Source: Haloferax marinisediminis (GTDB taxonomy: Archaea; Halobacteriota; Halobacteria; Halobacteriales; Haloferacaceae). From it: a stretch of 64,000 nucleotides of DNA. Below the pieces are notes generated by a model that did not search any database, had not been told where the DNA came from, and saw only the letters and a list, made by a program, of their open reading frames with translations. The stretch is from the NCBI RefSeq assembly GCF_009674585.1, contig NZ_WKJP01000001.1, forward strand, positions 1,674,001 to 1,738,000, written 5' to 3'. Every line of letters starts with the position of its first letter. The stretch's first letter is position 1. Position numbers and translations under genes: made by a program. Positions 17,209 to 22,958 of the stretch are shown here, piece by piece.

Positions 17209-17216
17209 TTTTATAA
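17209..17216 (+). promoter_or_regulatory. TATA box of the binding-protein gene
   Basis: ttttataa ends 25 bp before the ATG at 17241, the spacing of a leaderless haloarchaeal promoter, within an AT-rich island (aaattttataag) preceded by C/A-rich bases. Confidence 0.6.
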
Positions 17217-17240
17217 GCAGTAGTTGCTATTGGCTCACAC

Positions 17241-18551
17241 ATGGTACGTGATATCGTACGCCGCGACTTCCTCAAGGGAGTGGGAGCCGCGGGCGCGGCA
17301 GGCTTGACTGGACTATCTGGATGTATCGGTGGCGGAGGCGGTTCCGCTGGACCTGACGGACTAGTCGTCATCGGATACCCCGAGAGTGGTATCCAACTAT
17401 TCCGTGACTACTACAGCGCCTCCGACGGAAGCGAGCAAATCCTCGTTCCTGACGGACTGCGCTCCGGGTCGATGCCCGGTCAGGTCGGTAACGAGATGGC
17501 GAACGTCACCGGAACGGCACCGGCGGCAGGCGGTCCGAACCAGTCGACGTTCACCCAACTGTTCGAAGACGAATACGGCGCGGCACCCGGTGTCTTCACG
17601 TCGCAGTGTTACGACTCCGTCGCGATTCAGTTGCTCGCGAACGCTGCGGCCGGTGAGAACTCCGGTCCGGCTATCAAAGACCAGATGCGCCGGATGGCGA
17701 ACCCCGGCGGCACTGTCATCGGCCCCGGCGACCTCGTCGAAGGTATCGAACTGGCCGCAAACGGCGAAGACATCGACTACCAGGGTGCGTCTTCCTCGGT
17801 CAACTTCGACGCGAAGGGTGACCCGGCAGAGGCAGCCTACGCCATCTGGGAGTTCGACGCAGCGAACGACGCCACGACCGAAGTCGACAAGCAGAGTTTC
17901 CAGGGTGCGAACCCCGGCGGCGACGGTCCGGCCGCAGACAGTGGCCCCGGCGGCACCGACCGCGACATGACCGTCGGTATCCTGCTGCCAGAGACCGGTG
18001 ACCTCGCAGCAGTCGGTCAACCGATGATTCAGGCAGCACAGATTCCGGTCAAGCAGGTCAACGATGCGAACCCGGCAGGCCTCTCTGTCACGGCTGAAAT
18101 CGAAGACACGCAGACGTCCCCGGACGCTGGTGTCGCCGCTGCACAGTCGCTCGTCTCCGCAGGCGTGCCCTCGGTGTGTGGTTCGGCGTCGTCCGGTGTG
18201 AACGTCCCTGTCTCACAGCAGGCGTTCATCCCGAACGAAATCGTCGGTTGTTCGCCGTCCTCGACGGCACTGTCCGTCTCCGACCTCGACGACAACGACT
18301 TCATCTTCCGGACTGCGCCGTCTGACTTCCTGCAGGGCCGCGTCATGGCGCAGGTCATGTCCGACCGCCTCGGAACGGACACCGTCTCGACGCTGTACGT
18401 CAACAACGACTACGGTCAGCAGCTCTCCGAGCGCTTCAGCAACGTCTTCGCTGACGAGTTCGGTGGCGAAGTCTACCAACAGGTCGCCTTCAACATCGGG
18501 GAGTCCTCGTACTCCTCCGTCATCGAGACGGCGCTCTCCGGTCCGGAATAA
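17241..18551 (+). CDS. ABC transporter substrate-binding lipoprotein (LivJ-like), circularly permuted
   Basis: 436 aa. Tat lipoprotein signal: RRDFLKG at residues 7-13 and lipobox LSGC near residue 28, then a glycine linker. The order of the mature domain is swapped. Residues about 37-225 match the C-terminal half of LivJ-type binding proteins (DGLVVIGYPESGIQLFRD; FTSQCYDSVAIQLLANAA; VNFDAKGDPAEAAYAIWEF). A Gly/Asp/Pro linker follows, and residues about 243-436 match the N-terminal half (MTVGILLPETGDLAAVGQPM; CGSASSGVNVPVSQQAFIP; STLYVNNDYGQQLSERF). The protein ends at IETALSGPE, exactly where the C-half would normally continue. It converges on livHMGF and very likely serves that transporter (branched-chain amino acid or amide-type substrate). 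Confidence 0.88.
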   Translation: MVRDIVRRDFLKGVGAAGAAGLTGLSGCIGGGGGSAGPDGLVVIGYPESGIQLFRDYYSASDGSEQILVPDGLRSGSMPGQVGNEMANVTGTAPAAGGPNQSTFTQLFEDEYGAAPGVFTSQCYDSVAIQLLANAAAGENSGPAIKDQMRRMANPGGTVIGPGDLVEGIELAANGEDIDYQGASSSVNFDAKGDPAEAAYAIWEFDAANDATTEVDKQSFQGANPGGDGPAADSGPGGTDRDMTVGILLPETGDLAAVGQPMIQAAQIPVKQVNDANPAGLSVTAEIEDTQTSPDAGVAAAQSLVSAGVPSVCGSASSGVNVPVSQQAFIPNEIVGCSPSSTALSVSDLDDNDFIFRTAPSDFLQGRVMAQVMSDRLGTDTVSTLYVNNDYGQQLSERFSNVFADEFGGEVYQQVAFNIGESSYSSVIETALSGPE

Positions 18552-18882: not shown

Positions 18883-19644
18883 TTATCCGCCGAGGAAGTC
18901 CTGTCGGACCTGTTCGTCTTCGAGGAGCGCAGACCCGCGGTCCATGTAGCGGTTCTGCCCGTTCGCGAGGACGTAGCCGCGGTCACAGCGTCGAAGCGCC
19001 TCTTTCGCGTTCTGTTCGACCATCAAGATAGCCGTGCCTGCCTCGTTGATTTCGTCGATTTTGTCGAACATCTCCTGGACGAGGTCGGGTGCGAGACCCG
19101 CCGACGGTTCGTCGAGGAGCAGCAGGTCGGGGTCGAGCATGAGTGCACGACCCATCGCGAGCATCTGCTGTTGCCCGCCGGACATGGTCCCTGCTTTCTG
19201 GTGCTTGCGTTCTTCGAGGATGGGGAACCGGTCGTAGACCGCTCGAATCGCGTCCTGTGGCACCTCGTCGAGGATGTACGCACCCATCTCGAGGTTCTCT
19301 TCGACGGTCAGCGTCGGGAAGATGTTGTCGTTCTGCGGGACGTACCCGATTCCGACGTGGATGATACCTTCGGGTCGTCGGCCGGTGATATCCTCGTCTT
19401 GGAACTGAATCGTCCCACCCATGTGGGCGGTCAGTCCGAAGACGGACTTCATCGTCGTGGACTTGCCGGCCCCGTTCGGGCCGACGATAGTCACGTACTC
19501 GCCGTCGTAAACGTCCATGTCCACGTCGGTGAGAATCTGCAGGTCGCCGTACCCGGCGTCGAGGTTGCGGACACGCAGCAACCAGTCGCTGCGGTCTTCG
19601 ACACCGCCACCGCTCGTGGCGCTCGTGTTGGCGTCGACGCTCAT
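18883..19644 (-). CDS. livF: branched-chain amino acid-type ABC transporter ATP-binding protein LivF
   Basis: 253-aa ATPase. Walker A GPNGAGKST is at about residues 54-62, Q-loop in YVPQNDNIFPTLTVEENL, signature MSGGQQQMLAMGRAL, Walker B LLLLDEPSAGLAP, H-loop in ILMVEQN. The LivF-type early segment LDAGYGDLQILTDVDM is preceded by a 24-residue Ser/Gly/Asp-rich leader. The start ATG overlaps the livG stop (ATGA). It pairs with LivG to drive the LivHM permease. Confidence 0.92.
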   Translation of the reverse strand: MSVDANTSATSGGGVEDRSDWLLRVRNLDAGYGDLQILTDVDMDVYDGEYVTIVGPNGAGKSTTMKSVFGLTAHMGGTIQFQDEDITGRRPEGIIHVGIGYVPQNDNIFPTLTVEENLEMGAYILDEVPQDAIRAVYDRFPILEERKHQKAGTMSGGQQQMLAMGRALMLDPDLLLLDEPSAGLAPDLVQEMFDKIDEINEAGTAILMVEQNAKEALRRCDRGYVLANGQNRYMDRGSALLEDEQVRQDFLGG

Positions 19645-20504
19645 ACGTTGCCTCCGAGGTAGGCCTCGATGACTTCTTCGTTGCTCCGGATGTCGTCGGG
19701 CGTGCCCTCCGTGAGGACCTGCCCTTGGTGGAGCACGATGACGTGTTCACAGTTGTTCATGATGAGGTCCATGTCGTGTTCGACGAGCAGGAACGTGTAG
19801 CCCTGTTCGCGAAGTTCGTGGATGTGTTCGAGTAGTTTCTTTTCGAGCGTCGGGTTGACCCCTGCGAACGGCTCGTCGAGGAGCAGCATGTCGGGGTCGG
19901 TGAGGAGCGCTCGTGCCATCTCCAAGAGTTTCCGCTGGCCACCGGAGAGGTTGCCTGCGTACTCGTGGGCGATGTGGTCGATGTCGAAGAAGTCGAGGAC
20001 CTCCCAGACGCGTTCGAGGAGTTCCTCTTCTTGTTCGCGAACGTCGTCGCGGACGCCCGGTGTGACAGACCGCCACAGCGCCTCACCTCGCTGGTGTTTC
20101 GGCGCGAGCATCATGTTCTCGAGGACGGTCATCTCGCTCAGTTCACGAGCAATCTGGAACGTCCGAACCATCCCACGGTTCGCAATCTCGTGGGGTTCGA
20201 GGCCCGTGATGTCCTCGCCGTTGAACGTGACGGTCCCGGCGTCGGGTTTGAGCATCCCCGTGATGAGGTTGAACGTCGTCGACTTCCCGGCCCCGTTCGG
20301 ACCGATGAGACCCGTCAGCGTTCCGGCTTCCACTTCGAAGGACGCGCCGTCGACAGCGGTGATGCCACCGAAGGACTTTCGCAGTCCTTCGACTTGCAGT
20401 GGGAACTCCTCTGTCGTGTCGACACCGGATGCGAACGCACCAAGTGCGCCGTCGTCGACCTTGGTCGCGACTTCGTCGACTGGTGGATTCGATGCATCAC
20501 TCAT
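19641..20504 (-). CDS. livG: branched-chain amino acid-type ABC transporter ATP-binding protein LivG
   Basis: 287-aa ATPase. Walker A GPNGAGKST is at about residues 65-73, signature LSGGQRKLLEMARAL, Walker B MLLLDEPFAGVNP, then LLVEHDMDLIMNNC and the LivG-type C-terminal VLHQGQVLTEGTPDDIR. The ATG at 20504 is chosen: it overlaps the livM stop by 8 bp. A longer in-frame start at 20561 would add 19 residues lying wholly over livM. Third gene of livHMGF. Confidence 0.92.
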   Translation of the reverse strand: MSDASNPPVDEVATKVDDGALGAFASGVDTTEEFPLQVEGLRKSFGGITAVDGASFEVEAGTLTGLIGPNGAGKSTTFNLITGMLKPDAGTVTFNGEDITGLEPHEIANRGMVRTFQIARELSEMTVLENMMLAPKHQRGEALWRSVTPGVRDDVREQEEELLERVWEVLDFFDIDHIAHEYAGNLSGGQRKLLEMARALLTDPDMLLLDEPFAGVNPTLEKKLLEHIHELREQGYTFLLVEHDMDLIMNNCEHVIVLHQGQVLTEGTPDDIRSNEEVIEAYLGGNV

Positions 20505-21855
20505 CGTCTTCACCTCGTTCGATACCGCCATCGGTACGAACCGTTTCGTCGGTGCCGCCATCGGCGGCGGCCATCGACTTCGGACGGGACAGCGGGATGA
20601 CGGAGGCTGTCTCTTTGCGGTGGCCGAGCAGGCCTTCCGGACGGTTGTGCATCAGCCAGATGAGTACCAGACCCATCACGACGAGTTGGAGTTGGCGAAT
20701 ACTGTCGACCGTGTACAGCAAGAACGGGACGGGGTCGAACGAACTGATGAGCGGCGAAATCGCCTGTCCGAACCCTGAAGGCGAATCCAGATTGGGGAAG
20801 ACGGTTCCCACGAGGTTCTGGAAGTAACGTGGTCCCTGGTAGAGAACTGCTGCGAACACTGCGCCACCGAGGACGCTGCCGGTGTTCGACCCTGCACCAC
20901 CGATGATGAGGGCAATCCAGACGAAGAACGTCACGCGCGGCCGGAAGAAGTTCGGCGTCACAGCACCCTGCGGCATGAGCCAGAGAATCCCGGCGAGGCC
21001 CATCAGGGCACAGCCGAGCATGAACGACTTGATTTTGAAGCCGTCGGTGTTCTTCCCGAGCGCGTTTGCGACGTCTTCGTCTTCTCGAATCGCCTTCAGC
21101 ACGCGGCCGAACGGCGACTCACCGGTTCGCTTGAGTAGCCAGTAGTAGACGACGACGAAGCCAAGGAGCAACGCTCCGTAGACGATTCCATCGACGACCG
21201 GTTTGGGATTCGTCGGAACGATTACTCTGAAGGCATCGATGAAGCCAGTGTAGACACCCCACAGCCCAATCGCCTGGAACAGTGCTTCGAGCGGCGACGT
21301 GAAGTCGAGAATGAGGCCCGACCCGCCACCGAACCCGACTCTCGTTCCCAGGAGCGAGAACTGTTGGAGGTCACCAGAGAGGAAGCTGAACCGAACGATT
21401 TCTGACATCGCAATCGTCACGATAGCGAGATAGTCCGCTCGTAACCGTAGTGCCGGTAAGGCGACCACCAAACCGAGGATGGCCGCAGCGAGCATCCCAG
21501 CGAGGATACCGACCCACAGCGGGAGGCCGAGGCCCCCAACCTGAGCGGCACCGCCAGCGACGTACAGCGGCTTCGAGACGAGAGCCATCACGTAGACACC
21601 GACGGCCATGAAGCCGACGATACCGATGTTGAACAGTCCCGTGTACCCCCAGTGGAGGTTGAGCGCGAGCGACAGCATCGCGAAGACGCCGATGTAGAAC
21701 GTCAGCGTCGCGATGGAGTTGAGTTGGCCACGCAGGTCGTATCCGAGTACGATACCTGCCAGAAGGTACAGCAGGTACGCGGATGCGATGACCAAGACGA
21801 TAAGTCCCGTGTCGCCACCGGGAACGCGGGCGGCGACGTCGTCTTTGACGCTCAT
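20497..21855 (-). CDS. livM: branched-chain amino acid-type ABC transporter permease LivM
   Basis: 452-aa integral membrane subunit. About ten hydrophobic helices are visible (LIVLVIASAYLLYLLAGIVLG; LTFYIGVFAMLSLALNLHWG; LPLWVGILAGMLAAAILGLVV and others). LALNLHWGYTGLFNIG and LPALRLRADYLAIVTIAM match the LivM loop that contacts the ATPases. The C-terminus has a ~45-residue acidic tail. The start overlaps the livH stop (ATGA). Confidence 0.9.
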   Translation of the reverse strand: MSVKDDVAARVPGGDTGLIVLVIASAYLLYLLAGIVLGYDLRGQLNSIATLTFYIGVFAMLSLALNLHWGYTGLFNIGIVGFMAVGVYVMALVSKPLYVAGGAAQVGGLGLPLWVGILAGMLAAAILGLVVALPALRLRADYLAIVTIAMSEIVRFSFLSGDLQQFSLLGTRVGFGGGSGLILDFTSPLEALFQAIGLWGVYTGFIDAFRVIVPTNPKPVVDGIVYGALLLGFVVVYYWLLKRTGESPFGRVLKAIREDEDVANALGKNTDGFKIKSFMLGCALMGLAGILWLMPQGAVTPNFFRPRVTFFVWIALIIGGAGSNTGSVLGGAVFAAVLYQGPRYFQNLVGTVFPNLDSPSGFGQAISPLISSFDPVPFLLYTVDSIRQLQLVVMGLVLIWLMHNRPEGLLGHRKETASVIPLSRPKSMAAADGGTDETVRTDGGIERGEDDE

Positions 21856-22958
21856 GCAGTCGACCTCCCGCTAAAGAGACCGGACGGTTTCACGAGCAGG
21901 ATGACGATCATCACGACGAAGGCCGCGGCGCGAGCGAAGGCCGAGGGAATCCAGAGGACCGACATCGAGGCAGTAAGCCCGATGACGAGACCACCAGTGA
22001 TTGCGCCGTAGATGGAGCCAATCCCGCCGAGGATGACTGCTGCGAAGATGAGCAGCAGCAAGAGCCACCCGTCGTTGAAGCCGAGCGTCCCTTTCCAGAG
22101 GACGAACATGTAGCCGGCGATACCGGTGAGTCCGCCACCGATAATCCAGGTCGAGCGAACGACGCGTTCGGTTGGAATCCCGGTGATGAGTGCGAGGTCT
22201 TTGTTGTCGGCCATCGCACGCATCGCCTTCCCGAGTTTCGTCCGCTGCAAGAGCAGGTGGACACCAATCATCAGCCCGGAGGCGACGATGAGAAGGGTGA
22301 TGTCGTGTGCGTTGATGAACACAGTTCCGTCGAGCAGGTAGAGCCCAATCGATGGTGGCTGTGCCGTCGTGCCGCGAACGTCCGACCCGAAGACGAACTG
22401 CATCAGGTAGCGGAGTGCGAATGCGACACCGATACTCGTGATGAGGAGCGTGATTCCGTCTTCGTTACGCACCGGTTTGAAGATGAAACGGTCCACACCG
22501 AGTGACAGCGCAATCGCGAACGAACCGGCGACGATGATGCCTGCGACGACTGCTAACGGCGTCGACAACATCCCGAGGCCGAGCGACCCGCCGTAGACTG
22601 AACCACCAGCACCGACGAGGAGCAACGCACCGATGTCCGCGCGCCCGAGGCCGGCGATGAGGTACGTCGTCGCCCAACCCGAGAACGCACCGGCGGTGAT
22701 GTAGTCACCGTGTGCGAAGTTCGCGAAATTCAAAATACTGTACGTCATCGACAACCCGATTCCTGCGAGGCCAATTACGAGGCCACGCATCAGGCCGTCC
22801 CAGACGAGGGTGCCGATATCGGCAATCTTCGTCTGACCGGTTGCTAGCCCGAGGAGGAGGTCACCGAGCAGTACTGCTGCGATGACTCCCAGTACGAGCG
22901 CGAACGGACGCTCGATGGCAAATGCCCTCCCGCGGGAGTAGGTTTCGGCGATACCCAT
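21852..22958 (-). CDS. livH: branched-chain amino acid-type ABC transporter permease LivH
   Basis: 368-aa membrane permease, first gene of livHMGF. LivH signature near residues 55-85: GLMRGLVIGLAGIGLSMTYS then ILNFANFAHGDYITAGAF. The cytoplasmic coupling loop is RTKLGKAMRAMADNKDLALITG. Eight or nine hydrophobic helices. The transporter's binding protein is encoded on the opposite strand beyond livF rather than inside the operon. Confidence 0.9.
   Translation of the reverse strand: MGIAETYSRGRAFAIERPFALVLGVIAAVLLGDLLLGLATGQTKIADIGTLVWDGLMRGLVIGLAGIGLSMTYSILNFANFAHGDYITAGAFSGWATTYLIAGLGRADIGALLLVGAGGSVYGGSLGLGMLSTPLAVVAGIIVAGSFAIALSLGVDRFIFKPVRNEDGITLLITSIGVAFALRYLMQFVFGSDVRGTTAQPPSIGLYLLDGTVFINAHDITLLIVASGLMIGVHLLLQRTKLGKAMRAMADNKDLALITGIPTERVVRSTWIIGGGLTGIAGYMFVLWKGTLGFNDGWLLLLLIFAAVILGGIGSIYGAITGGLVIGLTASMSVLWIPSAFARAAAFVVMIVILLVKPSGLFSGRSTA

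Follow-up and report, generated by a model that had tools for sequence, protein, structure and literature searches.

A haloarchaeal LivJ-type substrate-binding lipoprotein with exchanged halves and the likely repeated rearrangement of its gene

By its sequence, the ORF at 17241-18551 of the window (the whole stretch of 64,000 nucleotides from Haloferax marinisediminis analysed here) is a LivJ-type (Peripla_BP_6) substrate-binding protein whose two halves are swapped at one clean cut. We put the probability at about 0.77 that this protein carries its C half before its N half, likely owes this order to a tandem duplication followed by partial deletion, and likely acts as the ordinary two-lobed amino-acid receptor of LivHMGF. 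Here, we describe the gene and the evidence for the exchanged halves, the occurrence of both orders at the same place in related genomes, and the routes by which the order may have changed, and then compare the family with permuted proteins known from elsewhere.

Parts of the gene and order of its halves

The gene lies on the forward strand, starts with ATG and encodes 436 amino acids in an intact frame. Its parts and its neighbours are:

17210..17217, + strand: TATA-like box, 24-31 bases upstream of the ATG, read from the sequence; would fit a leaderless transcript
17241..17324, + strand: Tat-type signal and lipobox, residues 1-28; TIGR01409 above cut-off, RR conserved in relatives
17325..17354, + strand: Gly/Ser-rich spacer, residues 29-38; length and sequence differ among relatives
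17355..17861, + strand: LivJ C half, residues 39-207, now placed first
17862..17963, + strand: linker, residues 208-241, from the old C-tail to the old N-head; consensus FEGxNPDGxGPxADSxPGGxxR
17964..18539, + strand: LivJ N half, residues 242-433, now placed last; fold of LivJ residues 1-194
18069..18074, + strand: counterpart of the second cut site (about residue 277/278); cut in type-2 relatives, uncut in the window protein
18540..18551, + strand: cut site 1, with the C-terminal GPE tail followed by the stop
18883..19644, - strand: livF, convergent neighbour, common to permuted and canonical relatives
19641..22958, - strand: livG, livM and livH, ORFs as listed

The TATA-like box is a candidate by its resemblance to the consensus, and the names livG, livM and livH presumably apply, given the usual LivFGMH order and family resemblance. 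The Tat-signal model TIGR01409 scores 18.7 bits, over its cut-off of 16.7, PF10518 scores 19.7 bits, under its cut-off of 22.7, and Cys28, which follows LSG, is the predicted lipidation site. A preliminary description of this DNA had seen an intact frame with a signal, a linker and a stop, and the twin-arginine signal, Cys28 and the conserved linker all bear this out. It had also recognized that the halves are swapped, which stands, whereas the boundaries that it drew (37-240 and 243-436) do not and are corrected to 39-207 and 242-433, with the linker at 208-241.

The reversed order is apparent from the Pfam model PF13458 (Peripla_BP_6), which matches the protein with 105.1 bits (cut-off 31.7) in two stretches; in a search of the genome, model positions 188-319 (29.4 bits, below the cut-off alone) lie upstream of positions 3-186 (80.6 bits) in a single frame, and four further PF13458 proteins encoded there have the normal order. 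On the solved LivK 3td9, query residues 244-433 correspond to chain 18-202 and residues 37-158 to chain 204-328, the latter match being weak by itself (15.5 bits), and the C half alone, searched against solved structures, finds 3td9 at just E=0.017. For the C half, the firm evidence comes from the family: the junction of canonical relatives coincides with the two ends of the permuted protein. These canonical-order relatives of the same subfamily came from a search of 392 genomes of the phylum, as two abutting matches with the N half leading. Within the class, the N half passes into the C half via three residues ending in Pro in 35 of 35 cases (relatives with an N half of at least 150 bits and the junction printed); outside the class, the junction has three residues in two of three relatives and four in the third. 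The three-residue junction separates the helix that ends the permuted protein from the strand that opens it and falls exactly between ALS and GPE at the C-terminus and between GP and DGLVV at the start.

Once the halves are exchanged in silico, a single stretch scores about twice as high on a model of canonical order. This model was built from 41 canonical proteins, which also serve as controls; the test excluded 4 canonical rows and, among the permuted ones, 6 duplicates and 5 that were broken, frameshifted or masked. The median of the permuted proteins rose from 245.8 bits in native order to 494.4 bits, with a higher score in 102 of 102 rows, and the window protein itself, for which such a realignment had been suggested beforehand, went from 237.9 to 489.8 bits. 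The controls fell from 528.8 to 262.0 bits; all 41 dropped, and the two distributions do not overlap (lowest native score 436.6, highest swapped score 287.6). Both halves of LivJ/Peripla_BP_6 are present and the canonical N-to-C order is absent, so we file the protein as a permuted variant of the family; the swap test, the two reversed PF13458 stretches and the canonical junctions agree on the permuted LivJ-type lipoprotein originally proposed.

A structure model of the window protein has a pLDDT of 84.9 and a pTM of 0.84, and both cuts lie at helix-to-strand turns of this model. In a fold search the N half matches LivJ chains, the best rows of sequential aligners spanning the N half only. Ser317/318, Thr342, Tyr391 and Asp71 are invariant and Tyr46 is at least 90% conserved in an alignment of 43 rows, and these positions are invariant in 18 type-2 rows; they correspond to pocket positions in LivJ. 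The livHMGF genes beside the ORF are a further trait of the LivJ family. Against five relatives, dN/dS is about 0.11-0.20, dS exceeding dN about five- to nine-fold. The swapped order in an intact frame, together with this constraint, supports the suggestion that the gene encodes a LivJ-type lipoprotein that is circularly permuted by nature and works.

Distribution of the two orders and their shared locus

The permuted order was found in all 80 loci kept out of 216 relatives in the genome collection, the 80 having been chosen as best matches to a permuted query. Across the class Halobacteria, the permuted family occurs in 171 of 391 genomes and 34 of 86 genera, counted as a match to the 43-row alignment with an E-value of at most 1e-100 and including three type-2 genomes and one interrupted gene; the eight relatives retrieved from outside the class are all canonical. 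A survey of haloarchaeal orthologues, as had been recommended, thus found permuted and canonical versions, often at the same locus. Of 113 permuted ORFs, among which 100 sequences are distinct, 108 are followed by livF on the other strand, in 92 cases within 1 kb, and the same holds for 22 of 45 canonical ORFs, in all 22 cases within 1 kb; the other canonical ORFs comprise 22 without livF inside a mostly short retrieved stretch and one with livF elsewhere. The livF neighbour is also present in a relative outside the class (L137). Permuted and canonical forms therefore often occupy one and the same place, facing livF. The convergence with livHMGF had earlier been said to fit a local rearrangement, a reading that we abandon because the arrangement is common to permuted and canonical relatives.

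Several further features of these loci were observed. The listed livG and livM ORFs of the window overlap at 20497-20561, and the true start of livG is probably further downstream. A permuted gene resembling those of clade B (see below) is interrupted (L136, G344:C2:2081075-2083864), its matches 1-331 and 325-433 overlapping by seven residues yet separated by about 1.4 kb, a pattern that an inserted element would produce. One Haloquadratum contig holds two permuted copies on stretches about 11.6 kb apart (L017 and L021), the second of which enters a masked stretch. Genomes G006 and G038 carry a clade-B permuted gene and a divergent canonical relative (L115/L117), whose N half stops early in the model (position 177-178), and in Halorussus litoreus a distant canonical binding protein (L040, 11820-13281) is found about 4.5 kb downstream of the permuted gene.

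Routes and number of rearrangements

The linker, conserved among relatives in the 43-row alignment, offers a clue to the route. By eye, its front prolongs the last strand of canonical proteins (IETLDxIxF) and its back resembles the stretch between lipobox and first strand in some canonical relatives (DDGPGGLGR in L148; GGTDR in L119 and L145-L147); if two copies had been fused tail to head, a canonical C-tail followed by a canonical post-lipobox head would be the expected result. Tandem pairs of permuted genes exist in several genomes (L055 5980-8806, L057 4470-7282, L058 4458-7282, G434:C2:186385-189140 and G636:C1:890849-893626), their members spaced roughly 100-170 bases. The make-up of the linker, these pairs and the fossil joints of P0120 described below support tandem duplication with partial deletion, raised as a possibility in the preliminary description, and we infer that this is the best-supported route. 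The loci and the 224 proteins examined, drawn from lists that each give the best 120 of more than 1,300 matches, include no fusion of the N-C-N-C kind or any other half-way form, and no remnants of deleted halves were found beside the genes in the retrieved stretches. Long frames in G414, G435, G596, G534, G450, G457 and G454, considered as fused tandems, each hold one N and one C half. The GP(D/E) repeat at both ends of the Haloferax proteins was discarded as a duplication scar because the tail varies from genus to genus.

A first tree, with the halves set in canonical order, comprised 68 rows, which remained from 87 chosen out of 158 classified ORFs once 2 long branches and 17 near-copies had been dropped. 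In this tree, the permuted rows split into three clades, a main clade that includes the window protein, clade B (L079, L116, L118 and L156) and clade C (L122 and L126), the groups being named after the tree had been inspected; 0% of 200 bootstrap trees unite the three. AU tests on the 68 rows gave p=0.003 for all permuted proteins as one clade, p=0.005 for main plus B, p=0.02 for main plus C and p=0.08 for B plus C; with 93 rows, including more canonical neighbours, the values were p=0.0009 for all permuted and p=0.004 for B plus C. Taken apart, the N half rejects a single permuted clade (p=0.004) and the C half does not (p=0.37), so much of the multiple-origin signal sits in the N half. LivF plus LivG of the same loci also reject one permuted clade (p=0.011), on a weak backbone and in a tree of 65 of the 93 loci, both genes not being obtainable from the stretch in the other 28. 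The starred branches alone force just 1 change in the half trees or 2 in the LivF plus LivG tree (label CP). Beyond the native C-tail, the linkers of the three clades are, by eye, unlike one another; the cut site is identical in all three. One more permuted protein, L211 (G494:C1:1052281-1053588), has its own branch and its own linker and is possibly a fourth permuted lineage. Together, these comparisons suggest that the same permutation likely arose at least three separate times (main, B and C). Gain of the permutation is the simpler direction because the outgroup is canonical; the tree leaves the direction of each change unfixed, and gain is not proven by it. N-half gene conversion in clades B and C could inflate or mimic the number of origins.

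Within the main clade, some relatives have a second cut. In this type-2 order, the signal is followed by the N half from about residue 278, a healed N-to-C joint of three residues ending in Pro, the C half, the main-clade linker and the start of the N half, whose first 35 or so residues form the C-terminus. Type 2 occurs in three genomes (G689, G697 and G620), and among the 224 matches listed, the best-scoring rows of three lists that each hold the best 120 of more than 1,300, 205 proteins have the cut-1 order, 18 are type 2 (two of them named Halosolutus) and one is canonical. The type-2 rows sit inside the main clade, where well-supported branches force at least three order changes, and a single type-2 clade is rejected (p=1.5e-6), which suggests that the second cut site was likely used at several places in the main clade and that the type-2 order likely arose more than once. 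The type-2 profile also provides what we regard as the strongest support from sequence for assigning the C half to LivJ: it runs unbroken over LivJ-type chains, 12-328 on 3td9 10-328 (66.6 bits) and 52-328 on 4gnr 46-319 (59.8 bits), so that both halves are assigned to LivJ. The final 37 positions of the profile align with 4gnr chain 4-40, weakly by themselves (6 bits), and a structure model of a type-2 protein is poor (pLDDT 45).

One protein appears to have returned to the canonical order. The metagenomic protein P0120, a near relative of Haloquadratum sequences, is in canonical order, yet the tree places it among permuted proteins from Haloquadratum at 100/100, and it is 94% identical to its permuted neighbour over aligned columns. 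The stretch between its halves is identical at 15 of 19 positions to the post-lipobox spacer of the permuted Haloquadratum protein L014, and its C-terminus at 14 of 21 positions to the start of the L014 linker. Fusion of two permuted genes in tandem, followed by trimming, would be expected to leave such joints, and P0120 is likely one reversion to canonical order that retained the old spacer and linker as fossil joints. It rests on a single metagenomic cluster of 13 members with a contig of 1,716 bases, and no second protein of this order was found among the matches listed for the P0120 query.

In the proposed model, the canonical gene next to livF would have been duplicated in tandem and the copies fused tail to head, and the new ends at cut 1 would have appeared when copy one lost its front half and copy two its back half. 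This sequence of events would have occurred at least three times (main, B and C, with L211 a possible fourth), and permuted tandem pairs would then have given rise, more than once, to the type-2 order (cut near residue 278) and, in one case, to the P0120 reversion. The protein is predicted to fold in the cytoplasm, leave by the Tat pathway, be lipid-tethered through a disordered spacer and close on its ligand like LivJ, with the tether leaving from the other lobe. We consider it slightly better than an even bet that the livF-facing haloarchaeal LivJ has been rotating in this broader sense, with at least three cut-1 permutations, a second site used in several lineages and one reversal, all in place, because a protein that is folded before Tat export and held by a long disordered lipid tether would tolerate its parts in any order. 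That folding before export and a loose tether may make the order nearly neutral is our own idea.

The main competitor of repeated permutation is a single permutation in an ancestor, after which the N halves of clades B and C would have been overwritten by gene conversion from canonical paralogues. It would account for the acceptance of one permuted clade by the C-half trees (p=0.37), for the equal cut site in all three clades and for genomes that hold both orders (e.g. G006, G038, G016, G051 and G055). We nevertheless regard it as unlikely, since the whole-protein and N-half tests and the LivF plus LivG tree (p=0.011) reject it, the clade linkers are mutually unlike by eye, and type 2 and P0120 are left unexplained. 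Considerably less probable is fission of the gene into two half genes that later fused in the other order, a general model for natural permutations (PMC3320104), which would suit halves that meet at a turn and could fold together when split. Lone halves in the retrieved stretches are confined to fragments of genes that are interrupted, frameshifted or masked (L125, L136, L075 and L142) and to weak matches inside the paralogues L081-L083, the linker joins a C-tail to a post-lipobox head as a tandem fusion would, and an old spacer lies between the halves of P0120. An error of assembly, or the fusion of two unrelated domains, has nothing in its favour apart from the odd order itself and can be given next to no weight: the error is excluded because 171 of 391 class genomes carry the permuted family, as do 80 of 80 kept relatives, and an unrelated domain in place of the LivJ C-lobe is ruled out by the 102 of 102 swap-test rows, the canonical junctions and the constraint. 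Repeated permutation through tandem copies is thus the reading that we retain.

Relation to known permutations and significance

Most natural circular permutations known to date are old and completed, and those of the duplication type are known mainly between more distant relatives. The closest system is TpMglB-2 (Tp0684), a naturally circularly permuted Type I binding protein and tethered lipoprotein of an ABC importer, for which the authors describe ligand binding and a conformational change upon binding, propose the name Type Ic ("Type Ic / Cluster Bc") and raise tethering as a possible favouring factor (PMC4990184). The window protein is likewise a circularly permuted Type I binding protein and a predicted lipoprotein beside ABC importer genes. 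TpMglB-2 belongs to the glucose (MglB) family, has the first three N-lobe strands at its C-terminus and barely aligns with MglB over the permuted part (PMC4990184). In contrast, the proteins described here are of the LivJ family and from archaea, and have other cut sites, several likely origins, two cuts and one likely reversion. The strand shift and MglB kinship of Type Ic are absent: the cut falls after about 192 residues (about 35 in type 2), and the best PDB matches of both the cut-1 and the type-2 profiles are LivJ-type. With LivJ/LivK and Peripla_BP_6 proteins (4n0q, 3ipc, 3td9 and 4gnr), the window protein shares both halves, the sequence profile and the gene neighbours; it differs from LivJ/LivK in linear order, linker and the position of its lipid anchor.

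Duplication is well established as a model for how permutations arise, exemplified by DNA methyltransferases and swaposins, and the proposed route and predicted half-way forms are common to those cases (PMC3320104). Unlike in those families, the orders here differ among close orthologues at one locus. Searches of the literature on circular permutation (in binding proteins, in haloarchaea and archaea, and in general) showed, among the 12 to 20 papers listed for each, neither a case from haloarchaea nor an orthologous binding protein permuted more than once. Permutation of a Type I binding protein (TpMglB-2) and the duplication model are already known; the repeated rotation of one orthologous gene was not found among these papers.

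Annotation can hide such a permutation, as the named proteins among those listed are called plain substrate-binding or leucine-binding proteins. A record from one locus bears on how permutations arise and on whether they are selected or neutral. The family offers a rare natural record of protein rearrangement, with likely at least three swaps that were likely recut or undone in some lineages, and presents three linear orders at one locus among close relatives, including a recent case with fossil joints. As the group includes the easily manipulated Haloferax, the route to each order and its cost would be directly testable.
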